Positions 5,233 through 62,461 of a stretch of 64,000 nt of DNA are shown piece after piece; the stretch's first letter is position 1; every line of letters begins with the position of its first letter. The stretch comes from Pseudomonadota bacterium. Lineage in GTDB: Bacteria > Pseudomonadota > Gammaproteobacteria > Burkholderiales > Burkholderiaceae_C. The notes beneath the pieces are model-generated. The model was given only the letters and a program-made list of their open reading frames with translations, had not been told where the DNA came from and did not search any database. The stretch is taken from contig JAUNUR010000001.1 of assembly GCA_030538085.1 (NCBI GenBank), positions 56,835 to 120,834 on the forward strand, read 5' to 3'. The position numbers were made by a program, and so were the translations under genes.

Positions 5233-5370
5233 ATATTGCAGCTTGATCTGGAATTGAAATAGGACACCAGAAAAACCCGCGCCCTCAGCTACCTGTTCGC
5301 AATCTCTGCGCGGGCGCCTGGGCGCGGTCTTGCGGCGTCTTTCGGCATTGCGATCCTTGGGTCATGCGCG

Positions 5371-5510
5371 TGCCATCAGAACCCCCCTCACATTCCCTCG
5401 TCATTGCGGCGAAGGCCGCAATCCATGGGGCGTCACCTTGATACGGCATTCACCTGCGGACACCGCGTGGATTGCGGCCTTCGCCGCAATGACGGGATGA
5501 GGTGAAGGCA
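5371..5510 (+). repeat. Palindromic repeat family 1, copy B (right end missing)
   Basis: It begins with GCCATCAGAA, as at the far end of copy C (28650-28859), then the same core with perfect arms TCATTGCGGCGAAGGCCGCA and TGCGGCCTTCGCCGCAATGA, and GATGAGGTGAAGG. The TGAATTACGAAACT...TCAATA end is not present. Confidence 0.85.
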
Positions 5511-43661: not shown

Positions 43662-45440
43662 GTGCCGAACCATTTAATCGTGTACTGCGGCTCCAGCAAC
43701 CAGAATAATATCAAGGTAACCATCGGCAATGCCGATTATTCGTACTATTTCATTTATCGTGAACTGGCCGATGTACTCTCCCGGCTGGGACAGGTGCACC
43801 TGGTGGATGACCTGGACGGCGTGGAGGCGCTGTACGACCAGTTGAGCGCGGACGGCTCGCCGTGCGTCCTGCTTTCAATTACGCCGCCACACAAGGCTCC
43901 CGTTGGATTACGTTGCCCCGTGGTGTGCGTGTTTGCGTGGGAGTTTTCCACCATTCCCACGGAAACCTGGGACGAGGACCCCCGCAATGACTGGCGCCAC
44001 GTGTTCGCCGCTCATGGCAAGACCATTACCTTGTCGGAATATGCGGCACGGGCCGTGCGCGCGGCAATGGGAAATGATTACCCGATGCTCGTCATTCCCA
44101 CGCCGGTATGGGAGCGCCTGGCTCCGGTACGGGCCGCCCAAGCCGGCCATGCAGTGCGGCACAACGCGCTGTTGCCCGCCCAAGGCATGGTTCTGGACAG
44201 TCGTGTCGTGCATTTCTCGCCGGATGCGCTGATCCAGGGGCTGGCCTCGATGGAAGAGGTGGATGACCAGTCCCTGCATGTTCCCCTGACGGTCACACCG
44301 GCACAGGTGCTGTCCACGACCGACAAGCGATTCTTGACGCAAACCGGCCAGCGCACCGCCAACCAGGGTCTGGTGTTGAAGGATGAAGGCGACGGATTCT
44401 GGATATACGGCCCTTACCTGCCGTGGCAAGCGGGCGCTTACGCGGTCACCGTATTCGGGCGTGCCCAGCTTCCGCAGGGGCGCACGGGATGGGTCGATGT
44501 GAGTTGCCACCAGGGCCAGGTCATCCTGGCGCGGCGCGATATCGACGAAGAATCCCTGAAAAACGCGGGCCCCACCGGCTGCCTGGCCGACTTGACCATC
44601 AGCCTGGAAAACGACTGCACCGATCTGGAGGTGCGCGTCTGGATGCCTGCCGGCACGCAGGGCGCGCTGTATTCGGTCGAGATTGCACCGGCAGAGTCGG
44701 CGCGCGATCCGGCAGACGCACCCGGCACCTCGCTCACGAACGAGGCGCAGGAGGTCCTGCGCCCGGGTTTGGAAAGGTTGGTGCTGAATGGCGTGGTGTA
44801 TACCGCCGTCCTCAATCCCAACGACGGCCGCAAGAACTGGGAGGACATGCTCAGCGCGTTCTGCTGGACGTTCCGTGACGTTGAAGACGCGACGCTGCTG
44901 ATCAAGGCGTCGCAGCATGACTTCAGCCGGTATGGGGCCTCCTTGCAGATCCTGCTGTCCAGGCTGGCCCCATTCAAGTGCCGCGTCATCTGCATACAGG
45001 CCTATCTGGACGATGCGGCCTATGCAAAGCTCATCCAGGCCAGCAGTTATTACGTCAACAGCTCGGTTTGCGAAGGGCTGTGCATTCCCATTCTGGAATT
45101 CATGAGTTGCGGGGTTCCCGCCATCGCTCCAGGGCACACCGCCATGGCCGACTACATCGACGCCGAAGTCGCGTTCGTGCTGACGGCCAGCACGGAGATG
45201 GCGGCCTGGCCGCACGACCCGCGCAAGAAGCGGCACGCCTTGCGCTACCGCATGCACTGGGACAGCCTGTGCACCGCATACCGCGAGAGCTATCTGGTCG
45301 CCAAGCAGGAGCCGGAGCGCTATGAGCACATGCGCCAGGCCGGCTTGGCACGCATGCGGGAATATGCGGACAGCGCGCGCGTGCAGCGGGCACTGGAGAC
45401 GTTCCTGCAGCCCCAGGTTCAGGAGCATGCCGCATGCTGA
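43662..45440 (+). CDS. GT4-like glycosyltransferase with inserted beta-sandwich module
   Basis: A 592-residue protein, first gene of the polysaccharide operon; GTG start with AGGAAG five bases upstream. The N-terminal half (about 1-215) and the C-terminal part (about 357-590) form a split GT-B glycosyltransferase homologous to the next gene, with VLNPNDGRKNWEDML and the GT4 EX7E motif EGLCIPILEF (about residue 471). Inserted at about 217-356 is a predicted all-beta module (FWIYGPYLPWQAGAYAVTVF, LEVRVWMPAGTQGALYSVEI) of the type found in sugar-binding appendages. The module may recognise the growing glycan; this is inference. It overlaps the next gene by 7 bases. Confidence 0.8.
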   Translation: MPNHLIVYCGSSNQNNIKVTIGNADYSYYFIYRELADVLSRLGQVHLVDDLDGVEALYDQLSADGSPCVLLSITPPHKAPVGLRCPVVCVFAWEFSTIPTETWDEDPRNDWRHVFAAHGKTITLSEYAARAVRAAMGNDYPMLVIPTPVWERLAPVRAAQAGHAVRHNALLPAQGMVLDSRVVHFSPDALIQGLASMEEVDDQSLHVPLTVTPAQVLSTTDKRFLTQTGQRTANQGLVLKDEGDGFWIYGPYLPWQAGAYAVTVFGRAQLPQGRTGWVDVSCHQGQVILARRDIDEESLKNAGPTGCLADLTISLENDCTDLEVRVWMPAGTQGALYSVEIAPAESARDPADAPGTSLTNEAQEVLRPGLERLVLNGVVYTAVLNPNDGRKNWEDMLSAFCWTFRDVEDATLLIKASQHDFSRYGASLQILLSRLAPFKCRVICIQAYLDDAAYAKLIQASSYYVNSSVCEGLCIPILEFMSCGVPAIAPGHTAMADYIDAEVAFVLTASTEMAAWPHDPRKKRHALRYRMHWDSLCTAYRESYLVAKQEPERYEHMRQAGLARMREYADSARVQRALETFLQPQVQEHAAC

Positions 45441-47620
45441 TCCTGGTCTACTCCGACACCCACGCCGGCAACGTGGAGGCGCAACTCGGCAAGCCCGAAT
45501 ACAGCTATTACTACGTGCTCCGGGAATACTTGCCGGTGCTGCGCCGCATCGGCATCGTGGTGGTGGTGCACGACCCGGAACAGGAGGTGGACAGGCTCTG
45601 GGCCAACGCCCGTGATCACGGACAGGATTGCGTGTTCCTGTCGTTCTCGCCACCCCACAAGACCTGCCTGACCTTGCGGTGCCCCACCATTCCCGTACTG
45701 GCGTGGGAATATTCAAGCATCCCGGTCGAAACATGGTTTGGGCAACCACACCAAGACTGGCGCACGGGCCTGGCCGCTTGCGGCATGGCGATCACGCATT
45801 CGCAATACGCGCGCCAAGCGATTCTGGATGCCATGGGGCCGGAATACCCGGTCATTTCAGCGCCAGCGCCAGTGTGGGATCGCTGCTCCGCCTTGCATGC
45901 ATCACCAGCGACGCAGGCCTTTACCCTGTCGATCCAGGGCACCGTACTGGACTCGCGCACGCTTGATTTGGCGCCCTTTGACATGCGAGAGCAGGGCTTG
46001 CCGGAAAACCGGCTGCTGCGCAACAAGGACGAAGCCCGAATCAACCCCACCCCGCTGACGCTGGACGGCATTCTGTATCTGGCGATTTTCAACCCGGAAG
46101 ACGACCGGAAAAACTGGGCAGACCTGCTCGACGGCTTCGTCGCCGCCCACCGGCATCGCACCGACACCACGCTGATCGTCAAGCTGGTCCACATGGGGCG
46201 CTCGTGGATTTTGCGCGATGTGCTGCGTTTTCTGTATTTTCTGCAGCCCTACGCCTGCCGCATCGTGCTGATCCACGGCTACCTGGACGACGCCGCGTAC
46301 GAGGCGCTTCAGCGCAACGTGCACTACGTTGCCACCACCACGCGCGCGGAAGGCCAGTGCCTGCCGCTGATGGAGTTGATGTCGATGGGCAAGCCAGCCC
46401 TGGCGCCGCGCCACAGCTCGTTGTCCGACTACGTCAACGCCGACAACACCTTCCTCATCGACTCCCATCCCGAGCCCACCTTCTGGGCGCACGACCCGCG
46501 CCGCGCCATCCGGGCGCTGCGCTTTCGCATCCACTGGCCGTCGGTGCAGCAGGCTTTCGAGGACAGCTACCAAGTCGCCAAGCATGACACCGCGCGCTAT
46601 GCCGCCATGTCCGAAGCAGCCATGCTCACCTTGCGGGGACATTGCTCGCAACAGGTGGTGCATGACCGGGTAAGCGCCCTGGTGGAACGCTGTATGGCGG
46701 CACAAGCGCCGACGCCGTGTGCCCAGACCCAACCATCCGCACCTGGCTGGCGCACCCGCCTGGGCCACTGGCTGCTGCAGGACCACCCCCAGCACGATGG
46801 AGATGCTGGCAAGGCGACCCTGAACGATACGAGCCACGCACCCTGGCTGCCCGAACTGACCCGGTTGGTGCCACGCCTGCCGGCGGTCGTGGCGGCCGAT
46901 GCGAGCACAGAAACCAGTTCCGCGCCCATTGCTGGCACCGCCAAGCCGCGGCCAGCCAACACGCAGCCCGCGTCGTCAAACGAGCATTTGTGGTGCGACA
47001 CGGCCAGTGGCATGGTCTGCCCAGGTTTTTCCATCACGCCCGATGACGTGCTGGTCGAAATAACCGATACGGCACAGGCCGTCGCAGCCTTTGCACAGCG
47101 GCAAGGCGCCAACGTGCGGGCAATCAACCGTCAGGCGCTGCAAGACAGACAGGTGGCGCCGACCGGCGCCACCGCTACGCGCGTGGTGTGGCTGGAAGCG
47201 GACGGCATGGATGCCCTGGCGCCGGCACTGCTGGCCGGATTGGCCACACTGGGCAAACCAGGCGCCCAATATCTGCTGCAATTGGACACCATCGACATGG
47301 ACGAGGCAGCCGCAGAGCCGACCTCGACGAACCTGGCCGACCAGTTGCGGGCCGCACTGGCGCCCCATGGTCTGCATCTGGACAGCGTGCGGCCCGCCGG
47401 GTTCTACCTCGCGCTGCGGCGCAAGTTCTTGCGGGCATTGCCATCCAGTACCACCGCCGGGCAGCCAGCCTTGCTGGAGCAATGGACCACCACCTGGGAG
47501 CTGCTGCAGCAAAAAGACCGTGGACCTTTGCTGATCGAGGGACTGCACGCCTTGCCCATGGGCAGTTGGCTAGCGCTGGCGCATAAAAACGAGCTGGCCC
47601 GCACGGGAGAAGCCGCATGA
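45434..47620 (+). CDS. Glycosyltransferase fused to a methyltransferase-like domain lacking the SAM motif
   Basis: A 728-residue protein. Residues about 1-425 are a GT4-like enzyme paralogous to the preceding gene (same segments SFSPPHKTCLTLRCPTIPVL, VLAWEYSSIPVETW, FNPEDDRKNWADLL; EX7E in AEGQCLPLMEL) but without its beta insert. After a Pro/Ala-rich linker, residues about 515-728 resemble the methyltransferase encoded next door: SITPDDVLVEI against DVGCGDGG context, then TLGKPGAQYLLQLDTID against RIGQPGALYLLTVPDTA. The glycine-rich SAM loop is replaced by EITDTAQAV, so catalysis is unlikely and a structural or recruiting role is inferred. Its stop overlaps the next start (ATGA). Confidence 0.8.
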   Translation: MLILVYSDTHAGNVEAQLGKPEYSYYYVLREYLPVLRRIGIVVVVHDPEQEVDRLWANARDHGQDCVFLSFSPPHKTCLTLRCPTIPVLAWEYSSIPVETWFGQPHQDWRTGLAACGMAITHSQYARQAILDAMGPEYPVISAPAPVWDRCSALHASPATQAFTLSIQGTVLDSRTLDLAPFDMREQGLPENRLLRNKDEARINPTPLTLDGILYLAIFNPEDDRKNWADLLDGFVAAHRHRTDTTLIVKLVHMGRSWILRDVLRFLYFLQPYACRIVLIHGYLDDAAYEALQRNVHYVATTTRAEGQCLPLMELMSMGKPALAPRHSSLSDYVNADNTFLIDSHPEPTFWAHDPRRAIRALRFRIHWPSVQQAFEDSYQVAKHDTARYAAMSEAAMLTLRGHCSQQVVHDRVSALVERCMAAQAPTPCAQTQPSAPGWRTRLGHWLLQDHPQHDGDAGKATLNDTSHAPWLPELTRLVPRLPAVVAADASTETSSAPIAGTAKPRPANTQPASSNEHLWCDTASGMVCPGFSITPDDVLVEITDTAQAVAAFAQRQGANVRAINRQALQDRQVAPTGATATRVVWLEADGMDALAPALLAGLATLGKPGAQYLLQLDTIDMDEAAAEPTSTNLADQLRAALAPHGLHLDSVRPAGFYLALRRKFLRALPSSTTAGQPALLEQWTTTWELLQQKDRGPLLIEGLHALPMGSWLALAHKNELARTGEAA

Positions 47621-48414
47621 ACACTTCCGCGCTGTCCGTGCAGGAACTGCACGCGCTGAACCCCGAGCGCAGCTTTGAAATCGGCCTGAAAGACGTGGTG
47701 TTCGACGGCTGGTATCAGCCGGACGGACACCTCTACCACGACTTCCCCATCGCACAGCAGGACATCGTGGTGGACGTGGGTTGCGGCGATGGGGGCAACC
47801 TGCGCTATTGCGGCGCGCAAGGCGCGCATCTGGTCGCGGCCGACATCGACGCCGACAAGGTGCGCGCCAGTGTCGAGCACTTGCGCACCACCCGCGCACG
47901 CCAGGTCGAGGGCATCGTGGGCGACTCCCGCCCGCTGGCGATTGCCGATGCATTCGCCACCCGCGTCATCTGCACCGAGGTCATGGAGCACGTCGCCGAT
48001 GTCCGGCAGTTTCTGGGAGAGCTGGTGCGCATTGGCCAGCCCGGAGCACTGTACCTGTTGACGGTGCCCGACACGGCCAGCGAGCACTTGCAAAAAAACA
48101 CGGTCGCTTCCGAATTCATGTTCCGGTACCCCAACCACATCCGCATCTTCGAGCGCGACGAGTTCTCCACCCTGGTGCAGCAGGCCGGCCTGCACGTGAT
48201 CCGCCAGAACGGCTACAGCTTCTTCGGGGCCGTCTGGTGGGGCCTGTTCTGGTTGTGCAAGTCAGACCCCTCGCTGCGCACCGCCGACCCGCTGGCGCTG
48301 AGCTGGGCACACACGTGGTCGCTGCTCATGGATCTGCCGGGCGAGGCGCGCGTCAGGGCACATCTGAACCAGATATTGCCGAAATCGCAAATCATCGTGG
48401 CCCGCAAGCCCTGA
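47617..48414 (+). CDS. Class I SAM-dependent methyltransferase
   Basis: A 265-residue enzyme with intact motif I VVDVGCGDGGN (about 51-61), acidic motif II LVAADIDADKV, ICTEVMEHVAD as motif IV and GALYLLTVPDT as motif V. In ABC-dependent polysaccharide loci a methyltransferase often caps the non-reducing end to stop chain growth; that role is plausible here because it sits between the glycosyltransferases and the exporter. It overlaps the preceding gene by 4 bases and is homologous to that gene's C-terminal domain. Confidence 0.85.
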   Translation: MNTSALSVQELHALNPERSFEIGLKDVVFDGWYQPDGHLYHDFPIAQQDIVVDVGCGDGGNLRYCGAQGAHLVAADIDADKVRASVEHLRTTRARQVEGIVGDSRPLAIADAFATRVICTEVMEHVADVRQFLGELVRIGQPGALYLLTVPDTASEHLQKNTVASEFMFRYPNHIRIFERDEFSTLVQQAGLHVIRQNGYSFFGAVWWGLFWLCKSDPSLRTADPLALSWAHTWSLLMDLPGEARVRAHLNQILPKSQIIVARKP

Positions 48415-48425
48415 GGAACGGCGGC

Positions 48426-50129
48426 ATGGAGCATCTTTATGAAACCATGGCCTTCTCGGAGCTGCCGCCCGGCTGCTTCAAGAGCGAAGCGGCCCGGCGC
48501 ACGAGCGGGCTGGTGCGCTATCGCAAGGGGCTGTCGCGCACGCAAGTGCTGGCGGGGTTGCAGCTGGACTGGTTCGCGGACGATCCGACGCAAAGCACGG
48601 GGCATGAAATCGTGCTGGACTCCGATCGCCTGGTCTTGACCATCCAGCTTTCCGGTCACGATCAAAAATACCGGTTTGGCGAACAGTCCTCGGGGCACTG
48701 GATGTTCCGCACCTTCGGTCCCTGCAGGGTGGAAGTCGGCAAGGGCGTCACCTCCAACGGGGTGGATTGCTTTCTCACTCCAAATGCCGAGCTGATCGTT
48801 GAGGACGATTGCATGTTCTCGTTGTGCCACCTGCACGTGGGTGACGGACACGCCATTTTTGATGTCGCGAGCGGGGAACTGCTCAACGTCAAGGAAGCAC
48901 CCCGAATCCACATCCGCCAGCATGTGTGGGTCGCCTTGCTTGCCTCCATCCTGAGCGACTCCGACATTGGCGCTGGCAGCATCGTGGCCAGCAAATGTGT
49001 GGTCAAGGGGACCGTTGCGCCATGTACCCTGATGGTAGGCGTTCCTGCCGTTGCCAAGAAAACCGGTGTCAGCTGGTCCCGCTGGCACCATGGTCACGAC
49101 CGGGACGAGGTGGTGAAGTATCTGGCCGGTCTGGACGTGGGTTGCTCGCCCGCATTCGAGAGCCGTCAGCCGCAAAGCGTCGTCACCGCCCCCCCGGCGG
49201 CCCAGACGACACAGCCAGCCCTTGCGCAAGGCGCTGAACCCGTCTTGCCACCGCGCGAGCCAGCCCCGGCACCAGCGCTGAACGCGTCTGCACGGCCTGC
49301 CCCTTCCTCGGCGGAGCCAGCCACGCCGCCCCCTTCCGACGCGGGCAAGCTGCGCACGGCGCTGAACGACTGGTGGCACGGCACGCGCCAGTTGCGCGTG
49401 TGGTGGACGCTGGCGCGCTACGACATCGTGCTGCGCTACCGCCGCTCCATGCTCGGCCCCTTGTGGCTGACCTTGAGCATGGGCGCCATGATCGCCGGCA
49501 TAGGACCGCTTTACAGCCAGCTTTTCGGCATCAACCTGACCGAATTTTTTCCGTATCTGGCGTTGGGCATCATTTTCTGGTTCCTGATCGCCGGGACGAT
49601 CACCGACGCCACCAGCGTCTTCATGGCCTCGTCCAACTACCTCAAGCTGGCCTATTTCCCCACCAGCCTGTTCGTGTGGCGCATGGTGGCGCGCAACCTG
49701 CTGCAGTTCTGCCACCACGTGCTGATCTTCCTGCCCATCGCCTGGTGGGCCGGCATCGCGCCGAGTTGGAAGATGCTGTACGTCCTGCCCGCGCTGGCGC
49801 TGTTCGTGATCAACGCCCAGGCCGTGGGCATCTGGCTGGGCATCCTGTGCGCGCGCTTTCGCGACGTGCCGCAAATCGTCACCAGCGTGGTGCAGATGCT
49901 GATGTTCCTCACGCCCGTGTTCTGGATGGCGGACAAGCTGCCAGAGCGGTCCCGGTTTGCCCTGTTGAACCCGCTGGCGCAGTTGCTGGACATCTTGCGC
50001 GCGCCGTTGCTCAACCAGGACGTGGGCGCTGGCAACTGGGAAGGCGTGATCCTGTTCACCAGCGTCAACCTCGTGCTGGCGCTGCTGGTGTTCATGCGCT
50101 ACCGGCGCAAGCTCATCTACTGGCTCTGA
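48426..50129 (+). CDS. wzm: Wzm-type ABC permease with N-terminal hexapeptide acyltransferase-like domain
   Basis: A 567-residue fusion. Residues about 40-215 end in a left-handed beta-helix pattern of hexapeptide acyltransferases (IHIRQHVWVALLASILSDSD, IGAGSIVASKCVVKG, MVGVPAVAKKTGVSW). A Pro/Ala-rich linker (about 225-315) leads to an ABC-2 permease of six helices (about 320-567: RYDIVLRYRRSMLGPLWLTL, YLALGIIFWFLIAGTITDAT, VVQMLMFLTPVFWMAD). Usual Wzm proteins are about 260 residues and have only the permease. ATG 48426 follows GAGGAACGG; the frame is open far upstream but would overlap the methyltransferase. Wzt follows 4 bases later. Confidence 0.88.
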   Translation: MEHLYETMAFSELPPGCFKSEAARRTSGLVRYRKGLSRTQVLAGLQLDWFADDPTQSTGHEIVLDSDRLVLTIQLSGHDQKYRFGEQSSGHWMFRTFGPCRVEVGKGVTSNGVDCFLTPNAELIVEDDCMFSLCHLHVGDGHAIFDVASGELLNVKEAPRIHIRQHVWVALLASILSDSDIGAGSIVASKCVVKGTVAPCTLMVGVPAVAKKTGVSWSRWHHGHDRDEVVKYLAGLDVGCSPAFESRQPQSVVTAPPAAQTTQPALAQGAEPVLPPREPAPAPALNASARPAPSSAEPATPPPSDAGKLRTALNDWWHGTRQLRVWWTLARYDIVLRYRRSMLGPLWLTLSMGAMIAGIGPLYSQLFGINLTEFFPYLALGIIFWFLIAGTITDATSVFMASSNYLKLAYFPTSLFVWRMVARNLLQFCHHVLIFLPIAWWAGIAPSWKMLYVLPALALFVINAQAVGIWLGILCARFRDVPQIVTSVVQMLMFLTPVFWMADKLPERSRFALLNPLAQLLDILRAPLLNQDVGAGNWEGVILFTSVNLVLALLVFMRYRRKLIYWL

Positions 50130-50133
50130 CCCC

Positions 50134-50931
50134 ATGGCACGGATCGACTTGCACAACGTCTGCGTGGACTACCCGGTCTACGACGCATCCTCGGTTTCGC
50201 TGAAAAAGCGCATTGCCTCGTCCGTCACGGGCGGGCGCTTTGGCGGCGCCATAGGGGTCACCACCATCAAGGCCCTGTCCAACGTGACGCTGTCGCTGCG
50301 CAGTGGCGACCGGGTGGGACTGGTGGGCCACAACGGATCGGGCAAAACCACCTTGCTGCGGCTGCTGTCGGGCGTGTATGAACCCACCGCCGGACGCATG
50401 CACGTGCAAGGCCACGTGACCAGCCTGATCGACTTACTCACCGGCATCGAGGGCGATGCCACCGGCATGGAGAACATCCTGCTGCGCGGCCTGGTCATGG
50501 GCATGGACAAAGGCGCCATCCAGGCGCTGGCCGGCGACATCGTCGACTTCAGCGGCCTGGGCGACTACATCCACCTGCCGGTGCGCACCTACTCCACCGG
50601 CATGGTCATGCGGCTGGCCTTTTCCATCGTGTCATGCATCCGCACCGACATCCTGCTGATGGACGAATGGCTGGCCGTGGGCGACGCGGATTTTTCGCGG
50701 AAGGCCGAAAGCCGCTTGCGCGCGATCGTGAACGACTCGGGCATCCTGGTCATTGCCTCCCACTTCCCGCAATTGATTCTCAAGGAATGCAACAAGGTCA
50801 TCGTGATGCATCACGGTGTCTTGCAGGAAGTGCTGTCCGTGGGGCAGTACCAGCAACGCATGACGGACGCCTACTTCGCATCCTTGCAGGCACAGCAAAC
50901 GGTGCAAACGCCAGAACCGCTTCCACTGTGA
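50134..50931 (+). CDS. wzt: ABC exporter ATP-binding protein Wzt (short form)
   Basis: A 265-residue ATPase that powers export of a lipid-linked polysaccharide with Wzm. Walker A is GHNGSGKTTLLRLL (about 68-81), the signature motif is YSTGMVMRLAFS, and Walker B is DILLMDEWLAVGDADF. It ends soon after the nucleotide-binding domain and lacks the C-terminal carbohydrate-binding domain used by E. coli O9a-type Wzt to recognise a capped chain, so substrate recognition must differ or be provided by other proteins. It lies 4 bases after wzm. Confidence 0.93.
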   Translation: MARIDLHNVCVDYPVYDASSVSLKKRIASSVTGGRFGGAIGVTTIKALSNVTLSLRSGDRVGLVGHNGSGKTTLLRLLSGVYEPTAGRMHVQGHVTSLIDLLTGIEGDATGMENILLRGLVMGMDKGAIQALAGDIVDFSGLGDYIHLPVRTYSTGMVMRLAFSIVSCIRTDILLMDEWLAVGDADFSRKAESRLRAIVNDSGILVIASHFPQLILKECNKVIVMHHGVLQEVLSVGQYQQRMTDAYFASLQAQQTVQTPEPLPL

Positions 50932-50938
50932 GTCCGAA

Positions 50939-52111
50939 ATGAAAACAAATGCCATGTCAATGAGCAATCTTTCGCCGCGTGTTGGCTACATACCCAGTCT
51001 GGATGGCATACGCGCGCTGGCCGTGTTGGGAGTCATTGGTTTTCATTTCACATTTCCCTTCAGAACACAGTTACTTGACACAGGCGGTTTATGGAAATGG
51101 TGGGTACATATTTCCAATAACGGCTGGCTGGGCGTGGATTTATTCTTTATACTCTCAGGCTATCTGATTGCCCGAAAATTGTTATCAAGCCCAGTCACCG
51201 ACTGGCCAGCGTACGCTCGCTTTGTTAACAGCCGGGCACGACGCCTGCTGCCGGCATATGTGGCCTGCTTGATATTCATAAATATCGTAGCGCTTGCCTT
51301 TACCCCCGATAGTCGTGTACTCCATGTTCAGTGGTGGGTTTGGACATTCACGGTGAATTTTGCTCAGGCGTTTGGCAATCCATTCATTGTGTCAGACCCC
51401 TTATATGGCCTAGATCACTTCTGGTCGCTGGCAATGGAATGGCATTTTTATCTGCTTTTCCCCTTGGTGCTGATGGTTAGCAAATCGCCTGTCAAGACAG
51501 CGCTTGGGATGCTTGCGTTGGCACTGTGCGTACGGCTTTTCATGCTTTGGCTTCTGCCAGAAAGATCAGCCAGTGCCGCATATTTCTTTACTTTTGCACG
51601 CATGGATGGCTTTGCCTTTGGTGTCTTGGCTGCGGCACGGGCAGAGCACATACCGCCACGCACACTCTGCCTTTTCGCCAAGGTAGCAATAGGTGCACTC
51701 ACCGTGCTATTCGTTGTCGTAGGATATCAGAGCATTGATATCCACCACAGTGTGACTTTTCAAGTTATTGGATACACACTGGCATCAGGTCTTTTCGCCA
51801 CGATCATTGCTTATCTGGCAACGAAAAACCAGCCCACTCCCATCACACTTTGGCTGGAGCATCCATGGTTGGTCAGAATCGGGCTCATCAGCTACAGCCT
51901 TTATCTTTGGCACTTGGTTTTTATTTCAATTATTACTGGCTGGGCAGTCAAGCATGCCTCCAACAGCCTCATACCCCAGTTCCTGCTGTCAAGCGCCATC
52001 AACCTGGCATTCACCCTGGTGGCATCCATCATTTCCTATCGCCTGTTCGAACAAGGCTATTTCCGGCAACGACGAACGCTCCAACCCAGATTGAAGGAGG
52101 CCATGACATGA
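50939..52111 (+). CDS. Acyltransferase-3 family membrane O-acyltransferase
   Basis: A 390-residue protein with about ten membrane helices and the acyltransferase-3 signatures IPSLDGIRALAVLGVIGFHF (catalytic His region), GWLGVDLFFILSGYLIARKL and FVNSRARRLLPAY. Such enzymes O-acetylate surface polysaccharides. Its DNA is clearly more AT-rich than its neighbours, which suggests a separate origin within the operon. Its stop overlaps the manC start (ATGA). Confidence 0.9.
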   Translation: MKTNAMSMSNLSPRVGYIPSLDGIRALAVLGVIGFHFTFPFRTQLLDTGGLWKWWVHISNNGWLGVDLFFILSGYLIARKLLSSPVTDWPAYARFVNSRARRLLPAYVACLIFINIVALAFTPDSRVLHVQWWVWTFTVNFAQAFGNPFIVSDPLYGLDHFWSLAMEWHFYLLFPLVLMVSKSPVKTALGMLALALCVRLFMLWLLPERSASAAYFFTFARMDGFAFGVLAAARAEHIPPRTLCLFAKVAIGALTVLFVVVGYQSIDIHHSVTFQVIGYTLASGLFATIIAYLATKNQPTPITLWLEHPWLVRIGLISYSLYLWHLVFISIITGWAVKHASNSLIPQFLLSSAINLAFTLVASIISYRLFEQGYFRQRRTLQPRLKEAMT

Positions 52112-53574
52112 AGATTGTCCCCATCATTCTCAGTGGCGGCTCGGGCACACGCCTGTGGCCCGTGTCACGCGAGACGCACCCCAAGCAACTGGCGCCACTG
52201 ATTCGCGGGCACTCCCTGCTGCAGCAAACCGCGTTGCGGCTGGCGGCGATGGAGGGGTCCAGGCTGCAGTTCACATCACCCGTCGTGGTCTGCAACGTGG
52301 AGCACCGCTTCATGGTGGCGGAACAGCTGTCGGTCATCGGCATCACGGATGCCCGCATCATCCTGGAGCCATGCGGCCGCAACACGGCACCAGCGCTCAC
52401 GCTGGCCGTGGAAATGATCCTGCAGGACACGCCCGACGCCCTGATGCTGGTCATGCCGGCCGACCACGTCATCAGCGACCTGCAGTCCTTTCGCGCCGCC
52501 ATCGAGCAGGCCAAGACCATGGCCGCCCGGCAAGATGCCATCGTCACGTTCGGCATCGTGCCGCAGCGAGCCGAGACCGGCTACGGCTACATCGACGCCG
52601 AGGCACTGCCAGGCAAGAAGGCTTTCCGCATGAAGGCTTTCATGGAAAAACCAGACCGCAAGCGGGCCAAGGCGTACATGGAAAGCGGGCACCACTTCTG
52701 GAACAGTGGCTTGTTCATGCTGCGCGCCCAGATCTGGCGGCACGCCCTGCAGCAACTGGAACCCGACATGTATGCCCTGGCCCGGCAGGCCGTGGTGCAA
52801 GCCGCCGTCGACGTCGACTTCATCCGTGTCGACACCGCGCTGTTCGGCGACTGCCCATCCGACTCGATCGACTACGCCGTGATGGAGCGCCTGGCCGAAA
52901 CGCACGGTCCCGCCGTCGAGGGCATGCTGGTTCCGCTGCAGGCCGGGTGGAACGACGTGGGCACTTGGGATGCCATCCAGGACGTGATGGACAAGGACGC
53001 CTGTGGCAACGCCCTGCACGGCGATGCCCGGGCCCAGGCCTGCACCAACAGCTTGCTCCATTCGAACACCCGCCTGGTGGTGGGCATCGGCCTCAAGAAC
53101 ACGGTGGTGGTCGAAACCAGCGACGCCGTGCTGGTGCTCGACAAGGCCCACGCCCAGAACGTCAAGCAGGTGGTCGAGGCACTGAAGCAGGAGGGACGCA
53201 CTTCCGCCAGTACCCACCGCAAGATCCATCGCCCCTGGGGGTGGTACGACAGCATCGACGCGGGTGAGCGCTTCCAGGTCAAGCGCATCGTGGTGGACCC
53301 CGGCGCCCGGCTGAGCCTGCAAATGCACCATCACCGCGCCGAACACTGGGTGGTCGTGCGCGGCACGGCGCGCGTCACCCGGGGAACGGAGGTGTTGATG
53401 GTGTCGGAAAACGAGTCCACCTTCATCCCGCTGGGGCAAGCACACCGCCTGGAAAACCCCGGCAAGGTACCGCTGGAAATCATCGAGGTGCAGTCGGGCG
53501 CCTACCTGGGCGAGGACGACATCGTCCGCCTCGAAGACGTCTATGGCCGCGACACCCCGGTGTCGGTGGCATAG
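52108..53574 (+). CDS. manC: Mannose-1-phosphate guanylyltransferase / mannose-6-phosphate isomerase
   Basis: A 488-residue bifunctional enzyme supplying GDP-mannose. The N-terminal nucleotidyltransferase has ILSGGSGTRLWPVSRETHPK, the LVMPADHVI segment and GFVEK-like FMEKPDRKRA, and WNSGLFMLRA. The C-terminal type II isomerase cupin has RPWGWYDSIDAGERFQVKRI and LQMHHHRAEHWVVVRGTARV. The length is typical (about 470-490). It equals WbpW/AlgA function and feeds gmd and rmd downstream. Confidence 0.95.
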   Translation: MKIVPIILSGGSGTRLWPVSRETHPKQLAPLIRGHSLLQQTALRLAAMEGSRLQFTSPVVVCNVEHRFMVAEQLSVIGITDARIILEPCGRNTAPALTLAVEMILQDTPDALMLVMPADHVISDLQSFRAAIEQAKTMAARQDAIVTFGIVPQRAETGYGYIDAEALPGKKAFRMKAFMEKPDRKRAKAYMESGHHFWNSGLFMLRAQIWRHALQQLEPDMYALARQAVVQAAVDVDFIRVDTALFGDCPSDSIDYAVMERLAETHGPAVEGMLVPLQAGWNDVGTWDAIQDVMDKDACGNALHGDARAQACTNSLLHSNTRLVVGIGLKNTVVVETSDAVLVLDKAHAQNVKQVVEALKQEGRTSASTHRKIHRPWGWYDSIDAGERFQVKRIVVDPGARLSLQMHHHRAEHWVVVRGTARVTRGTEVLMVSENESTFIPLGQAHRLENPGKVPLEIIEVQSGAYLGEDDIVRLEDVYGRDTPVSVA

Positions 53575-53586
53575 GCATACAGCGCC

Positions 53587-54366
53587 ATGTCCCAAGAAAA
53601 AGCGCATATGCGAGCTTCTGCTCACTCCGCCATCGAGCATGCCCTGACCTCTGAACCACACCAGATACAAGACTTGCATCAGCATATTCAAAACTATCAA
53701 TTCGCATTGCAGCAAAGTCATGCGCGCGCCGCCGCCTTTGAGGTTGCAGCGCAGCAGGCACATGTACGCGCGGAAAGTGCACGGCAAGAAATAAGAACAA
53801 CGCAAACCAGGTTGGCCCGGAGTGAAGCAGAAGCGGCAAAACTCCAAAGCGCATTCGAGCGCGAACAGAAAACCAGCCAGCAACTGACGGAAAAACTTGC
53901 CGCCAAGGAACAGATCGCGGCCGAATTGCAGGCGTATGGTCAAAACTTGGAACATGCGCTGCACGCAGCCCAACAGCATGCCGAAGCAGTCACCGAACAA
54001 TTAAGGCAACTGCACGCAAGCCGTTCATGGCGCCTCACACAACCGCTCAGGCGGGCAGAAGCCACTGCCCATGCCTTTCGGCATGGCGTCAAAAAATATT
54101 TCACGCCTGAACCACATAACTGGCGGCACCGCTTGCTGACGTCTTTTAGGCAGTGGTTGAGCGCACATCCTCGCTGGAATAGCGCCGTTGTTCGTTGGTT
54201 GAATCACCACCCGGATATCAAGCGCAGGATCGTGCAAGCACAAATTTCCGCCACTTCTCATGACGCCCCCGCCCCGGCCATTTCGCAGCAACCAGATGCA
54301 TCCGCATGGACTGCGATTATCTGCAAGCGTCTGCAGAATCAAAAGTTTGCATCGGGAGGGAACTAG
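53587..54366 (+). CDS. Free-standing coiled-coil protein, possible chain-length ruler
   Basis: A 259-residue soluble protein. Residues about 25-150 form a long heptad-rich coiled coil (IQDLHQHIQNYQFALQQSHA, SARQEIRTTQTRLARSEAEA, LTEKLAAKEQIAAELQAYGQ), followed by the motif LHASRSWRLTQPLR that often ends coiled coils in polysaccharide enzymes, and a basic C-terminal part (about 160-259). It lies directly before the three-module glycosyltransferase. In E. coli O9a the WbdD coiled coil acts as a length ruler and binds the polymerase WbdA; a similar role here is inference. The start of the next gene is one base after its stop. Confidence 0.75.
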   Translation: MSQEKAHMRASAHSAIEHALTSEPHQIQDLHQHIQNYQFALQQSHARAAAFEVAAQQAHVRAESARQEIRTTQTRLARSEAEAAKLQSAFEREQKTSQQLTEKLAAKEQIAAELQAYGQNLEHALHAAQQHAEAVTEQLRQLHASRSWRLTQPLRRAEATAHAFRHGVKKYFTPEPHNWRHRLLTSFRQWLSAHPRWNSAVVRWLNHHPDIKRRIVQAQISATSHDAPAPAISQQPDASAWTAIICKRLQNQKFASGGN

Positions 54367-57300
54367 ATGCGGCTGATCGTCGATCTGCAAGCGGCGCAGG
54401 CTTCAAATCGTTCACGCGGGATTGGCCGCTATGCGCTATCGCTGGTACAGCACCTGACCATGCAAAAAAATGAGCATGAAGTCATCCTGGTACTCAACGG
54501 CGGTTTTCCGGATTCCGTAGCGGATATTCAGAACGCCTTCAAAGGGCTGATGGACAGCTGCCGCATTCAGGTATGGAACAGCTTGGCTCCCGATCCGGCG
54601 CAAGGACCCGGCACCCGTGTGCACGACGATTGCCGTGCCATCATGCTGGAAGCGTTCATTGCCAGCCTGAATCCCGACATGGTGCTGATTTGCAGCTTGT
54701 TCGAGGGATGGGGAGATGCCGCCATCACCAGCATCGGGAATTACACTCGGATCCCATGCGCCGTGGTACTGTATGACCTGATTCCTCTTCTTCGGCCAGA
54801 GCTTTATCTAACACACGCCCCCTTCGAAAAATGGTATTTTGAAAAATTGGTTCAATTGAACCGATCAGATTTGCTACTGGCCATTTCAGAGTCAAGCCGA
54901 AACGAGGCCTTGACCCATCTCGACATGCCCGCCAACCGCACGGTTTGTATTTCTTCCGCATGCGGATCACAGTTCCAACCGCAAGTCATTGATCACGATG
55001 CGATCGAAAAACTGAAAAATAAATATGGAATCCACAAACCATTTGTCTTATACACAGGGGGCATTGATCCACGAAAAAACGTGGAAGGCTTGATACACGC
55101 CTTCTCTCTATTGCCAGCCGGCATGCGACGCAAGCTGCAATTGGTTGTTGTTTGCTCGGTGCATAACGCAGATCGCCAGCGCCTACTCAAGTTAGCAAGT
55201 GAGCGCACACTACGGGGTGATGATTTTTTGCTGACGGGTCACGTCCCCGAGGCCGACCTGGTCACTCTCTATAACGCCTGCCGTCTTTTCGTATTTCCCA
55301 GCTTGCATGAAGGTTTTGGGCTTCCAGTACTTGAAGCCATGCAATGTGGCAAGGCGGTGGTTGCGGCACGCACGTCCAGCCTGCCCGAGGTGGTGGGACG
55401 TGATGACGTGCTGTTCGATCCGCTCAATCATCAGGAGATGGCCGATCGGATGTCGAGCGTACTGTCTGACAACGCATTGCGAGCGGAACTGGAAAAACAT
55501 GGCCTGGAGCGCTCGAAGAATTACAGTTGGCAAAAAACCGCTGATGCTGTTTGGCTCGCCCTTGAGCAATATCTGGCCACACATGCAAGCAAGAAACAAC
55601 CCACGGCGGCAGGCACAACCCCAACACCCGCCGCGCGGCCGCTTTTGCGAATGGCTTATCTTTCGCCTTTGCCTCCTGAGAAAAGCGGGATAAGTGACTA
55701 TAGCGCCGAGCTATTGCGCGAGCTGGTCCGCTGGTATCAGGTGGATTTGATAACCGATCAAACCGAAATTAATGACAGCTGGCTCAAAAGCCATTGTCAG
55801 ATACGCACCATTGCATGGCTGAAGCAACACGCCAAAAGCTATGACCGTGTGCTCTACCATTTCGGAAACTCTCATTTTCATGCACACATGTTCGATCTGC
55901 TGGAAGAAATTCCCGGCGTGGTGGTGCTGCATGATTTCTTTCTCTCCGGAATTCAAGCACACAGGGAAATACAAAACCCGGGAACTTGGGCATGGGCGCG
56001 AGCGCTTCAGGCCAGCCACGGGTACTCGGCGGTGCAATCAAGGTTTTTAGCCGAAGACACCGCGAACGTGGTTTGGAAATATCCAACAAACCTGCCTGTT
56101 CTGCAAAATGCGCTGGGCATGATCGTGCACAGCCGGTATAACCAGCAACTGGCGCAGCAGTGGTATGGCCCCACTTTTTCGAACGAATGGGCGGTGATCA
56201 ACCTGATGCGCCAGCCAGCGGTAAAAACCGACAGACAAGCAGCACGGGCGGCCTTGGGACTGGCGACAGACGCCTTCGTGGTGTGCTCCTTCGGCATGCT
56301 GGGGCCTGGAAAACTCAATCACCGCTTGCTGGATGCCTGGCTTGCCTCTCCCTTGTCCGAGTTGCCGAACGCCCATTTGGTGCTGGTGGGAGAAAATCAC
56401 CCGGGAGAATATGGCCAGCAACTGATTCAGGTCATGCAAGCAGCTGGCGCGGCTTCACCAATCGTCATCACTGGTTGGGTTGATCAGGATACTTTCCAAC
56501 AATATCTGGCCGCCACCGATCTGGCGATTCAGTTGCGTGGCAACACGCGGGGAGAAACGTCCGCGGCGGTGCTGGATTGCATGAACCACGGCTTGCCCGT
56601 GATCGTGAACGCGCACGGAAGCCTGGCTGAGCTGCCACGGGATGCGGTTTGGATGTTGCCCGACGCATTTACCGACGAGCAATTGGCAAGCGCGCTCGAA
56701 AAACTGTGGCGTGATCCAGAGTTGTGCAAAACACTGGGCAACAAGGCACGCGCCTTCGTTCATCAGGCCCATGCGCCGGCGGATTGCGCGAAGCAGTATG
56801 CGCACGCCATCGAGCAGTTCTATCAGCGTGCGCACCTGGGTTTGCACGGAACAGTCCAGGCACTGTCCGCGCATATCGGTCCAAGTGACGATGTGCAAGC
56901 GCTGGCAGGGGCCTTGGCCGAGAACTTCCCGCCTCACCCCAGACGCCACCAGTTGCTGGTGGACATTTCCGAGCTGGTGCAGCGCGACGCTCGCTCGGGC
57001 ATTCAGCGCGTTGTTCGCGCCCTGTTGTTGTCTTGGCTAACCCATCCGCCGCGGGGATGGCAGGTCGAGCCTGTTTATGCCATCGAGGGGCAACCGGGCT
57101 ACCGGTATGCAAGGCAGTTCACTTCGCGCATGCTGGAAATCCCCGACGCTTGGGCGCGCGACACGGCAGTCACTGCCTGGGCAAGCGACATCTTCATAGG
57201 GCTTGATCTGCAACCGCACATCGTTCCAGCGCAGCACGCGGTTTTGAAATCCTGGAGCCAGCGCGGTGTGCGTGTGTGGTTCGTGCTGTACGACTTGCTG

Positions 57301-58152
57301 CCGATGCGGATGCCGCAGTTCTTCTTGCCTCAAGCGCACGCGGGGCATGAGTGCTGGCTCAAGGTAGCCACCGATTTCGATGGCGTGGCCTGCATTTCCG
57401 CCGCGGTGGCCAATGAGTTGCGGGAATGGCTGGGCCAGCAACCGTCGGAGTCACGGCGGCCACTTGTCAAGCATTTTGGCCTGGGAGCGGACGTGTGCAA
57501 CACCAGCCCAAGCAAAGGCATGCCGCGTGACGGAACACGGGTGTTGCAGATGCTTGAACAAACCCCCGCGTTTTTGATGGTGGGCACGCTGGAGCCACGC
57601 AAAGGCCACATCCAGACGCTTCAAGCGTTCGAGTCGCTGTGGGCGGCGGGCGTCGATGCCAGCTTGGTCATCGTGGGCAAGCAAGGCTGGCAGATGGAGG
57701 ATTTCTCCCACCGCCTGACGCACCACCCGCAGGGCGGCAAGCGCCTGCACTGGCTGCAAGGCATCAGCGACGAGTATCTGGAAGCCGTTTATGCGCGCTG
57801 CCAGTGCCTGATCGCCGCCAGCGAAGGCGAAGGCTTCGGGCTGCCGCTGATCGAAGCCGCGCGTCATGGCCTGCCGATCCTGGCGCGCGACATCCCCGTG
57901 TTCCGTGAAGTGACGCAGGAGCACGCCAGCTATTTCAGTAACTCGCGGGAGCCGGAGATCCTGGTACAGGCCATCGTTCGATGGCTGGAGCAGCACAAGC
58001 AAGGACACGTTGTGCAGTCAACCGGCTTGCGCGTGCTGACATGGGCCGAAAGCGCGGCGCAATTGCTGCAAGCGGTCGGAATCGAGCGCGAAGTCGATCC
58101 ATTGGATCAATCACTCGCGCGGGACAAGCAAGAAGGAGAGAGGGTGACATGA
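54367..58152 (+). CDS. Three-module GT4 glycosyltransferase (WbpX/WbdA-like polymerase candidate)
   Basis: A 1261-residue protein with three GT-B modules. Module 1 (about 1-405) has [20 protein letters not shown], the PRKN-type [14 protein letters not shown] and EX7[13 protein letters not shown] (about 314). Module 2 (about 425-815) starts [20 protein letters not shown] and has a degenerate EX7E ([11 protein letters not shown], about 728). Module 3 (about 860-1240) has [30 protein letters not shown] and [11 protein letters not shown] (about 1155). E. coli WbdA, a two-module polymannose polymerase, is the closest known logic. Donor is probably GDP-D-rhamnose or GDP-mannose. It overlaps gmd by 4 bases. 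Confidence 0.85.
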
Positions 58153-59183
58153 AAAAAGCGGTCGTGACAGGCATCACGGGACAAGACGGTGCCTACCTGG
58201 CGCAATTGCTGTTGGACAAGGGCTACAGCGTGTACGGCACCTACCGCCGCAGCAGTTCGGTGAATTTCTGGCGCATACAGGATTTGGGCATCACGGGGCA
58301 TCCGCACCTGCATCTGGTCGAATACGACCTGACGGATCTGGGCAACACCATCGCCTTGCTGCAACGCGTACAGCCCGATGAGGTGTACAACCTCGCGGCG
58401 CAGAGCTTCGTGGGCGTAAGCTTCGAGCAGCCCATCGCCACCGCGCACATCACCGGCCTGGGCGCGGTGCATTTGCTGGAGGCCATTCGCCTGGTCAATC
58501 CAGCCATCCGTTTCTACCAGGCCAGCACGTCTGAAATGTTCGGAATGGTGCAGGCGGTGCCGCAATCGGAAACCACGCCGTTCTACCCACGCAGCCCCTA
58601 CGGCGCGGCCAAGCTGTACGCCCACTGGATGACCGTCAACTACCGCGAGAGCTACGACATCTTTGCCTGCAGCGGCATCCTCTTCAACCACGAAAGCCCA
58701 TTGCGCGGGCGCGAGTTCGTCACGCGCAAGATCACCGATGCCGTGGCCAAGATCCGTCTGGGGCAGCTCGATTGCCTGGATCTGGGCAATCTGGACGCCA
58801 GCCGCGACTGGGGCTACGCCAAGGAATACGTGGACGGCATGTGGCGCATGCTGCAAACCGACGAGCCCGACACCTTCGTGCTGGCCACGGGCCGGACGGA
58901 AACCGTGCGCGACTTCGTGCGCTTGGCGTTCCAGGCGGCTGATATCCCAATCGAATTCCAGGGCTATGCCGAGAACGAGCGCGCCATCGACACCAGCAGC
59001 GGCAAGACCGTGATGCGCATCAATCCGCGCCACTACCGCCCCGCCGAGGTCGATTTGCTGGTGGGCGATGCCACCAAGGCGCACGAGCGCACGGGCTGGA
59101 AGGCCAGCACCACGCTGGAAGAGCTGTGCACGCTGATGGTGCGGGAGGACCTGAAACGCAATGAGCGCGGCACCTCCTTCTGA
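58149..59183 (+). CDS. gmd: GDP-mannose 4,6-dehydratase
   Basis: A 344-residue short-chain dehydrogenase-fold enzyme that makes GDP-4-keto-6-deoxy-mannose from GDP-mannose. The NAD(P) motif is [15 protein letters not shown], with the RRSSS segment, the active-site YGAAK (in [20 protein letters not shown]), and [20 protein letters not shown] typical of GMD. Start ATG 58149 overlaps the previous stop. It pairs with rmd for D-rhamnose synthesis. Confidence 0.96.
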
Positions 59184-60111: not shown

Positions 60112-61271
60112 TGCGCGTCGGCGTGGATGCCCGCCTCATGGCCGAGCCAATCACCGGCATTGGCCGCTACACGTGGGAGATGGTGCGCGCCCTGCAGCAA
60201 CAGCCGGAACTGGAACTGCGCCTGTACCTGCCACGTCCCGTGATGGGCGACAACCCATCGGCGTCATGCACCACGCTGCGCACGGCGCGTATGCCAGGCC
60301 GTCCGGGCAAGATGCTGTGGTCGCAAACCCTGCTGCCGCTGTGGGCCGCGCGCGATCAGGTGCAGGTGTTCTGGGGCCCCACGCACCGGCTGCCAGCCCG
60401 TCTGCCCGCGCGCATCGCGCGGGTGGTCACCATTCACGATCTGGTGTGGCGGCACGCGGGCGCCACGATGCGGCCCCTGAGCCGCCTGCTGGAGCGCGCC
60501 CTGATGCCACACGCGGTGGCGCAGGCCGATGTCGTCATGGCCGATTCGGCGCACACGGCCGCCGATATCGAGGCCGAGTTTCCCCAGACGCGCGACAAGG
60601 TGCGGGTGGTCCACCCCGCCGCGAGCCGCCTGCCACCCGCGCTGGGTCTTGAGGCGCTGCGCCCGCTGGGCATCACCCGCCCCTATGTGCTGTTCGTCGG
60701 CACGCTGGAGCCGCGCAAGAACCTGCCACGCTTGTTGCAAGCCTTTGCCGCCCTGCCGGCGGACTTGCGCGCCAGCCACCAGCTGGTGGTCGCCGGCGGC
60801 CAGGGCTGGGGCGGCGTGGACCTGCCGCGCGCGGTGGCCGCGCTGGGGCTGCAAGATACCGCCGTGCTGCCAGGCTACGTCAGCGATCAGGTGCTGGCGA
60901 CGCTCTACGCCCACGCACGCTGCCTGGCCATGCCTTCGCTGCATGAAGGCTTTGGGCTGCCACTGGTCGAAGCCATGGCCTGCGGCGTGCCGGTGATCAC
61001 GTCGAACCTGTCATCCATGCCCGAAGTGGCGCAAGACGCGGGCTTGCTGGTCAACCCCTTGCAAGTCCAGGAAATCACGGCCGCCTTGCACGCCCTGCTG
61101 GGCGACTTCGCGTTGCATGCGCGTCTGGCGGCGCGAGCCGGGCATCACGCGCAGCGCTTCAACTGGCAGCATGCCGCCCAACAGGCGCGGCTAATTTTTG
61201 AAGAAGCGCTGTACCGCCGCCGCATCCGGCTGCGATCCACGCCCGCGGGCGCGCACGGAGCCTCGCCATGA
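60108..61271 (+). CDS. GT4 glycosyltransferase, WbpY-like
   Basis: A 387-residue GT-B enzyme. The N-terminus VGVDARLMAEPITGIGRYTW matches the WbpY/WbdB group; later [30 protein letters not shown] and EX7E HEGFGLPLVEAM (about 280). In the A-band pathway WbpY adds D-rhamnose or starts the chain. It overlaps rmd and the following gene by 4 bases each. Confidence 0.87.
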   Translation: MMRVGVDARLMAEPITGIGRYTWEMVRALQQQPELELRLYLPRPVMGDNPSASCTTLRTARMPGRPGKMLWSQTLLPLWAARDQVQVFWGPTHRLPARLPARIARVVTIHDLVWRHAGATMRPLSRLLERALMPHAVAQADVVMADSAHTAADIEAEFPQTRDKVRVVHPAASRLPPALGLEALRPLGITRPYVLFVGTLEPRKNLPRLLQAFAALPADLRASHQLVVAGGQGWGGVDLPRAVAALGLQDTAVLPGYVSDQVLATLYAHARCLAMPSLHEGFGLPLVEAMACGVPVITSNLSSMPEVAQDAGLLVNPLQVQEITAALHALLGDFALHARLAARAGHHAQRFNWQHAAQQARLIFEEALYRRRIRLRSTPAGAHGASP

Positions 61272-62461
61272 CCCCTCCCATCAAGGTCCTGCATTTCTAC
61301 AAGACGGCCGTGCCCGATACGTATGGCGGCATCGAACAGTGCATGCATCAAATCGCCAGCGGCTCGGCGCGACACGGCATTGAAAGCCACGTGCTGTCGC
61401 TGAGCACGGACGGCCCCGCCACGCACGCCATGCCGGGCTATACCCGGCACACCGCCAGACTGGATTTCCAGATTTCGTCCACCGGCTTCTCCCGTTCGGC
61501 CCTGCACCGTTTTCGCGAACTGGCACGGCAGGCCGACATCGTGCATTACCAGTTTCCTTGGCCGTTCATGGACATGGTGCATTTCGCGAGCGGCCTGCGC
61601 CGCCCCAGCGTGCTCACCTACCAGTCCGACATCGTGCGGCAAAAGCATTTGCTCAAGCTGTACCGCCCGCTCATGCACCGCTTTCTCGGCCAGATGGACC
61701 GGATCGTCGCCACCTCGCCGGACTATCTGGCCAGCAGCACGGTCTTGCAGCGCTACCGGGACAAGGTGCACGTCATTCCCATCGGGCTGGATGCCGCCAC
61801 CTACCCAGACGTGTCCGCCGAGCGCAAATGGCACTGGCAGAGTCAACTGGGTTCAGCGCCATTCTTCCTGTTCCTGGGCGTCATGCGTTACTACAAGGGA
61901 CTGCACGTGCTGGTCGAGGCGCTGCGCGGCACCGGCATGCGCGCGGTGCTGGTGGGGTCTGGCCCCATGGAGTCCGCCATCCGTGCCCAGGCGCGCTGCC
62001 TGGCACCCGGCCAGATCATCTTCACCGGCTCCCTGCCCCATGAAGACAAGGTGGCCCTTCTGGATCTGTGCCATGCCATGGTGTTTCCGTCGCACTTGCG
62101 TTCCGAGGCCTTCGGCATCTCCTTGCTGGAAGCCTCCATGTTCGGCAAGGCCATAATTTCTTGCGACATTGGCACCGGCACCAGTTACGTCAACCAGCAC
62201 GGCGTGACCGGACTGGTGACACCGCCCAGCCACCCGGCGGCCTTGCGCCAGGCCATGCACACGCTCTGGCATGACAGCGCGCTGGCCGCCCGCATGGGCG
62301 TGCAGGCACGGGTGCGGTATCAGGAACTGTTCACCGGAGCGCGCATGACGGCCGCCTATGCCGATCTGTACCGCTCGACGCTGAAAGCGCGCCGCACGGG
62401 CGACGGCCAGGTATCGCCCACGCAGAACGGCAACACCCAGGCTTTCGCGGCCACGCCATGA
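61268..62461 (+). CDS. GT4 glycosyltransferase, WbpZ-like
   Basis: A 397-residue GT-B enzyme with the N-terminal VLHFYKTAVPDTYGGIEQCM, FQFPWPFMDM-type segment (YQFPWPFMDMVHFASGL), FLFLGVMRYYKGLHVLVEAL and EX7E SEAFGISLLEASM (about 276-286), as in WbpZ/WbdC, which adds the first adaptor sugar on the lipid-linked primer. It is the last gene of the operon; a 246-base spacer follows. Confidence 0.87.
   Translation: MTPPIKVLHFYKTAVPDTYGGIEQCMHQIASGSARHGIESHVLSLSTDGPATHAMPGYTRHTARLDFQISSTGFSRSALHRFRELARQADIVHYQFPWPFMDMVHFASGLRRPSVLTYQSDIVRQKHLLKLYRPLMHRFLGQMDRIVATSPDYLASSTVLQRYRDKVHVIPIGLDAATYPDVSAERKWHWQSQLGSAPFFLFLGVMRYYKGLHVLVEALRGTGMRAVLVGSGPMESAIRAQARCLAPGQIIFTGSLPHEDKVALLDLCHAMVFPSHLRSEAFGISLLEASMFGKAIISCDIGTGTSYVNQHGVTGLVTPPSHPAALRQAMHTLWHDSALAARMGVQARVRYQELFTGARMTAAYADLYRSTLKARRTGDGQVSPTQNGNTQAFAATP

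Follow-up and report, generated by a model that had tools for sequence, protein, structure and literature searches.

The coupling of glycan modification to export in ABC transporters is known mainly from terminator enzymes and from the carbohydrate-binding domain (CBD) of the ATPase Wzt, whereas far less is understood of how exporters lacking a CBD select and complete their cargo. Parts of PMC9445017 and PMC11231755 set out how, in CBD-type systems, recognition of a chemical cap by the CBD gives the licence for export. The exporter comprises two Wzm and two Wzt subunits (a section of PMC11231755), and Wzm has an N-terminal interface helix with a loop that shifts its position at the substrate portal (a passage of PMC9445017). 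Some ABC-dependent O antigens carry no end modification, according to an excerpt of PMC6286764. NeuO and OatWY, O-acetyltransferases of the left-handed beta-helix (LbH) type, are described in portions of PMC3046976: both act on long polymers, and NeuO is a homotrimer with its active-site His donated by the neighbouring subunit, a quaternary arrangement shared by OatWY. The same portions name six active-site residues common to the two enzymes (His147, Trp171, Met134, Arg174, Trp220, and Arg222 in NeuO numbering) and a salt bridge between Arg174 and Glu119 in NeuO.

The window (i.e., the whole stretch of 64,000 nucleotides analysed here, to which all coordinates refer unless a locus is named) contains a gene cluster in which, as assembled, two such proteins are joined in a single frame. 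The sequence-only reading had proposed a hexapeptide acyltransferase-type domain fused to Wzm; the domain is borne out by sequence profile, and the Pro/Ala-rich linker between the two halves and the lack of a CBD in the neighbouring Wzt are confirmed as well.

The fusion gene and its two halves

The gene and its parts are as follows.

48426..50129, + strand: fused gene, one unbroken frame of 567 codons from an ATG start to a TGA end
48413..48418, + strand: Shine-Dalgarno-like GAGGAA, 7 nt 5' of the fusion ATG, overlapping the methyltransferase stop codon
48426..49088, + strand: NeuO/OatWY-like LbH O-acetyltransferase domain, codons 1-221, supported for about residues 60-220
48849..48851, + strand: codon of H142, aligned to the catalytic His147 of NeuO and His121 of OatWY (residue roles from a portion of PMC3046976)
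48927..48929, + strand: codon of W168, the counterpart of NeuO Trp171 and OatWY Trp145 in the alignment
49089..49337, + strand: Pro/Ala-rich linker, codons 222-304, of low confidence in the model except for a short predicted helix (226-234)
49338..50126, + strand: ABC-2 permease (Wzm) of the galactan-exporter type, codons 305-567, from PF01061, NCBIfam, and a match to M. abscessus Wzm

The fusion gene has a methyltransferase gene on its 5' side, whose stop is at 48414, and wzt (start at 50134) on its 3' side, each a few bases away. Between its codons 203 and 342 there is no in-frame ATG, and the in-frame GTG and TTG codons 229, 230, 238, 274, 323, and 325 in the linker and first helix lack, by eye, a clear Shine-Dalgarno sequence that could serve the permease alone; a permease-only product may arise from such an internal codon, e.g., TTG274. 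A frameshift joining two genes, the possibility that the sequence-only reading had held against its own proposal, was not seen in the open frame. The source is a single draft genome of 134 contigs; compared with this genome, the junction DNA matches only itself, which makes a repeat-driven misjoin unlikely. GC3 amounts to 0.765 in the LbH part, 0.724 in the linker, 0.934 in the permease part, 0.849 in wzt, and 0.784 and 0.788 in the upstream glycosyltransferase genes GT1 and GT2, respectively, and the contrast between the halves of the fusion is compatible with separate origins.

Residues of about 60-220 are assigned by profile comparison to the broad family of NeuO/OatWY-like LbH O-acetyltransferases. 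As a single sequence, the protein matches NeuO with E 2.5e-9 over residues 72-220, while an LbH profile built from the family with the window protein as first sequence matches OatWY and NeuO with 5e-61 and 9.8e-55, the next LbH family following at 6.6e-26. The catalytic His that a hexapeptide acetyltransferase, as postulated by the sequence-only reading, should carry is present as H142. Read off the NeuO alignment, the counterparts of the six common active-site residues are H142, W168, M130, L171, W217, and R219, i.e., five of the six are kept. In alignment A3 (18 rows: the window and 17 others), the catalytic H142 and the acetyl-CoA-user Trp, W168, are invariant in all 18, and the Arg174 position of NeuO, Leu171 in the window, is Arg in only one of the 17 other rows. 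Both partners of the Arg174/Glu119 salt bridge are changed (L171 and C115); this salt bridge is a mark of the polysialic acid O-acetyltransferases proper, among which the window domain, to judge from its sequence, is not filed.

Eleven columns of A3 do not vary among the 17 other rows. Seven of these residues are kept in the window domain (D140, H142, N154, W168, V193, G205, and P207), and the remaining four are lost (N60H, I84F, G126E, and G178D), all scaffold residues, so that its hexapeptide turns are degenerate; the Pfam Hexapep score of the domain is below threshold. Catalytic positions kept amid drifted scaffold positions seem more in keeping with a diverged enzyme that still works than with an inactive one. 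Fold prediction, proposed earlier as a check on the N-terminal part, gave a beta-rich model with NeuO and OatWY as best matches and low confidence (pLDDT 61.6, TM about 0.35); the LbH type thus follows from the sequence profile, and the model is too weak to decide. In the full-length model, also of low confidence, NeuO is only rank 39 among the structural matches.

The full-length model, computed from alignment A4, has a pLDDT of 64.6 and a pTM of 0.48. Residues 211-291 fall below pLDDT 50 and helices begin at 305; the linker is predicted to be disordered. The C-terminal half is a Wzm by its PF01061 score (65.7 bits, cut-off 26.9) and its adjoining wzt partner, and it is matched by Wzm of Mycobacterium abscessus both in sequence (E 1.8e-45) and in Foldseek (E 1.5e-12). 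The nearest NCBIfam models are the galactan exporters NF050109 and NF050108, with scores below the cut-off in both cases (224.3 vs 380 and 254.5 vs 400 bits); because these curated cut-offs are missed, the Wzm/Wzt pair is not filed, on present scores, with the galactan exporter equivalogs.

Further N-terminal LbH-ABC-2 permease fusions, for which the sequence-only reading had suggested a search, turned up in none of the genomes, plasmids, and 161 loci covered. A full-length search for a second protein matching both halves returned none in 149 relatives, 29 genus genomes, and 97 genomes of the family of G096 (a related genome discussed below), and no second fusion occurred among the best three candidates per genome in 369 class and 349 phylum genomes; these sets overlap (G000 belongs to the relatives, genus, class, and phylum sets), and weak fusions could escape three-candidate scoring. 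The LbH profile has a match at E<=1e-15 in 113 of the 349 phylum genomes, and among the LbH matches listed there (best seven candidates per genome) G000 alone has a frame of >800 codons. When the 161 loci were scanned for frames of at least 100 codons, a permease frame was found in 81 and an LbH-profile frame in 71; the two profiles share a frame in four loci alone (L001, L031, L087, and L151), all of them copies of the fusion gene itself. The plasmid search gave 142 matching records, none covering 80% of the query, and a contig scan with six short peptide patterns, which reaches close relatives only, gave one locus, broken by its contig end. No Wzm-acetyltransferase fusion was found in the open-access literature within its limited coverage; PMC11597636 contains both terms, with no fusion described in the portion available. 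What weakens the finding most is that it is a single example from one draft genome.

Several candidates were rejected. Long frames with a permease match in L078, L079, L082, L119-L121, L152, L155, and L157-L160 have no acetyltransferase match, and those whose sequence was inspected look like read-through in GC-rich DNA. The long LbH-profile frames of L153 (1187-3193, G073, 669 codons) and L156 (1576-2961, G1112, 462 codons) have no permease match, and L023 resolved to a normal permease of 266 residues. In G020, of the same genus, locus L161 carries an LbH gene (1677-2324, E 4.6e-18) and a distant permease (4647-5468, E 1.9e-5) as separate genes on one strand, about 2.3 kb apart, a layout that could give rise to such a fusion. 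In G205, a frame of 940 codons (L081:4373-7192) contains a NeuO-like LbH stretch (residues 526-704) after a long N-terminal part; its C-terminal part looks by eye like a methyltransferase, and the frame would be a further case of this acetyltransferase type within a multi-domain protein.

The gene cluster and related loci

The fusion gene is surrounded by the following genes.

43662..45440, + strand: glycosyltransferase GT1 with an inserted stretch (Pfam, homology to G096)
45434..47620, + strand: glycosyltransferase GT2 with a C-terminal extension (Pfam, homology)
47617..48414, + strand: SAM methyltransferase (MT), 50-53% identical to MTs beside CBD-type exporters in five genomes
50134..50931, + strand: Wzt ATPase, 265 residues, without a C-terminal CBD (no PF14524 match)
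50939-52111: Acyl_transf_3 membrane acyltransferase (Pfam)
52108..53574, + strand: ManC, mannose-1-phosphate guanylyltransferase / mannose-6-phosphate isomerase (Pfam)
58149-59183, + strand: GDP-mannose 4,6-dehydratase, gmd (Pfam)
59161-60111, + strand: reductase-like gene (Pfam)
61268..62461, + strand: glycosyltransferase GT5, 56% identical to its G096 counterpart

The rest of the cluster encodes a protein of 259 residues that looks coiled-coil by eye, a protein of 1261 residues with three glycosyltransferase-1 stretches, and two more glycosyltransferases, counting GT5. The dehydratase and the reductase-like gene would supply a precursor of the GDP-rhamnose type, and the gene set as a whole points to a rhamnose/mannose-type polymer that is probably made in the cytosol and exported by the ABC transporter. 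Among the genes of 43662-62458, Pfam shows none for sialic acid.

Some of these genes have features of their own. GT1 contains about 150 residues (about 205-350) between its two glycosyltransferase halves, where G096 has a Pro-rich stretch; as a CBD-like module the insert has no significant Pfam or PDB match, and by eye it is possibly a beta-sandwich module. The GT2 extension (residues 417-728) is missing from the G096 homologue and shows a weak likeness to the methyltransferases of the CBD loci (E 3.4e-6; 7e-10), so it is perhaps a degenerate methyltransferase domain. The Acyl_transf_3 gene has 50% GC (GC3 0.54), compared with about 62-66% in the flanking genes, and was probably acquired separately; its product is a possible second acetylation route beside the fusion. 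PADLOC gave no match for anti-phage defence, and Rfam places Bcj11, a Burkholderia small RNA, at 30671-30792 on the - strand (90.2 bits vs 49).

The Wzt_C domain by which CBD-type exporters are recognized is absent from the locus, and from the window's own genome at E<=1; in a control search, 4 of 14 named genomes were positive for the family. Among 149 relatives, GT2 at E<=1e-20 is found in the own genome and in G096 only. At the G096 locus, GT1, GT2, MT, gmd, and GT5 are 49-57% identical over the aligned parts (GT2 49%, MT 51%, GT5 56%), ManC 43%, and the reductase-like gene and GT4 33%, and export is served by an unfused Wzm (31% identical) with a Wzt of 419 residues that bears Wzt_C (E 1.7e-34). 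MT occurs at E<=1e-30 in five of the 97 genomes of the G096 family (G096, G1168, G1180, G1193, and G1211). All five loci combine GT2, MT, and GT5 with an unfused Wzm (275-289 codons) and a CBD-bearing Wzt (408-422 codons; both stop-to-stop frames), four of them have ManC, gmd, and the reductase, and none of the five stretches around these exporters contains an LbH-profile frame. Three of the loci (L147, L148, and L149) have two MT copies, 52-53% and 44-46% identical to that of the window. The five are not independent, as they come from one family and three genera, three of them from one genus. By homology, the window thus carries a conserved polymer-making gene set alongside a different exporter: CBD-less, galactan-type, and with an acetyltransferase on Wzm. 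The exchange presumably ran from a CBD-type exporter to the CBD-less one.

The two nearest permeases (G006, 59% identical, and G032, 57%) have Wzt partners of 243 and 235 residues without a CBD, and no fused LbH domain; as both do without, exporters of this type can apparently dispense with an additional reader. The 19 kb surrounding the G032 pair contain one LbH gene (L084:6405-7136, profile E 8.6e-18), which has no D-x-H motif and by eye encodes an LpxA/WbpD-like repeat protein.

Readings of the LbH domain

The fusion is probably a Wzm with its own tethered O-acetyltransferase, which would modify the glycan at the channel mouth, so that modification and export may be physically coupled. The N-terminus of Wzm presumably lies on the cytosolic side, and an enzyme tethered at the interface helix would sit at the channel mouth. 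The NeuO/OatWY-like domain would be held in the cytosol by the flexible linker, beside the channel entrance, and, with acetyl-CoA as donor, would O-acetylate a lipid-linked glycan, probably of the rhamnose/mannose type, shortly before or during its entry into the Wzm2Wzt2 channel. As the family is trimeric with intersubunit active sites and Wzm is dimeric, an active domain would depend on partners that belong to other exporters; the linker (~85 residues) might be long enough for the domains of neighbouring exporters to form trimers, by which the exporters would cluster. The mismatch between a trimeric enzyme and a dimeric permease raises a steric question and counts against the tethered enzyme, as do the loss of four of the eleven invariant columns, the change of Arg174 to Leu171, the weak fold model, and the lack of a second fusion. 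What favours a writer of acetyl groups is the retention of the catalytic residues, since a domain that only binds could do without them.

The sequence-only reading had suggested that the domain might serve substrate recognition, given that Wzt lacks its CBD. On this view, the domain would bind the glycan and license export in place of the missing CBD, with catalysis secondary or lost. The exporter exchange makes this attractive: in each of the five loci that share GT2, MT, and GT5, Wzm is unfused and Wzt bears a CBD, whereas the window locus has an LbH domain, no CBD, and a genome without a Wzt_C match at E<=1. Moreover, CBDs can work in trans (from a part of PMC9445017), so that a reader could be placed elsewhere than on Wzt. 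However, the nearest permeases have neither module, the catalytic D/H/N/W positions were kept while the scaffold drifted, and the five CBD loci, from one family and three genera, are not independent; recognition is therefore regarded as rather unlikely, and an active O-acetyltransferase appears to be the simpler reading. A combination of both, in which a CBD-less exporter took the place of a CBD-type one and its permease then gained a trimeric O-acetyltransferase that places and senses the acetyl tag, with modification as the export licence and trimers clustering the dimeric exporters, is unlikely.

The loss of otherwise invariant scaffold residues, the sub-threshold Hexapep score, the absence of other fusions from the genomes, plasmids, and loci searched, and a GC3 close to that of GT1 and GT2 and distant from that of the permease, suggesting separate origins, would also suit a decaying passenger, i.e., an acetyltransferase gene fused to wzm by loss of a stop codon, with the permease working alone. 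This is quite improbable, given the intact frame, the kept catalytic residues, a Pro/Ala composition as in a real tether, and the lack of a good start for the permease alone. The latter point, together with the unique junction DNA and the continuation of the frame through a plausible linker, also makes it very improbable that two genes were joined by an assembly or sequencing artefact, even in a single draft genome of many contigs without a second example in the searches. Finally, the homotrimer of NeuO and the same arrangement in OatWY (portions of PMC3046976), along with a linker that would be long and flexible enough, could point to a trimerising scaffold without enzymatic role that brings exporters and the glycosyltransferase complex together in clusters; such a role can hardly be expected in view of the kept catalytic residues and a trimer state that is here only presumed. 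Under the preferred reading, that of a tethered O-acetyltransferase, clustering of the exporters is a testable prediction of the trimer arrangement.

Comparison with known systems

The window domain resembles NeuO (3JQY) and OatWY (2WLC-2WLG) in profile homology over the LbH part, in the best structural matches of its low-confidence model, in the His/Trp pair, and in the active-site Met, Trp, and Arg. Those enzymes, in contrast, are stand-alone proteins acting on sialic acid capsules, whereas the window domain sits on a permease and has the Leu171/Cys115 pair. Likeness to Wzm-Wzt of M. abscessus and the galactan exporters (9QFX; NF050109/NF050108) extends to the sequence and fold of the permease, the sequence of the ATPase, and a Wzt without Wzt_C, although the window pair remains below both equivalog cut-offs. 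Wzm of the galactan exporters is not known to carry an enzyme domain.

With the CBD-type O-antigen exporters (Aquifex aeolicus WzmWzt and the loci of G096, G1168, G1180, G1193, and G1211) the window shares the GT2, MT, and GT5 neighbours, in the case of the five loci, and the putative coupling of glycan end chemistry to transport. The difference is that the Wzt CBD of A. aeolicus reads a methylated end (a section of PMC9445017), whereas the window has no CBD and an LbH domain on Wzm. Homologous methyltransferase and glycosyltransferase genes beside two different exporters make the five related loci a ready-made comparison. A chemical modification of the glycan tied to export would also link the window with the WbdD-type and multi-module terminators (parts of PMC11231755); in those systems, a coiled-coil protein of its own carries a kinase/methyltransferase or a Kdo transferase, in place of an acetyltransferase on the permease. 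If the tethered enzyme is confirmed, a permease carrying its own polymer acetyltransferase would represent a direct physical coupling of modification and export.
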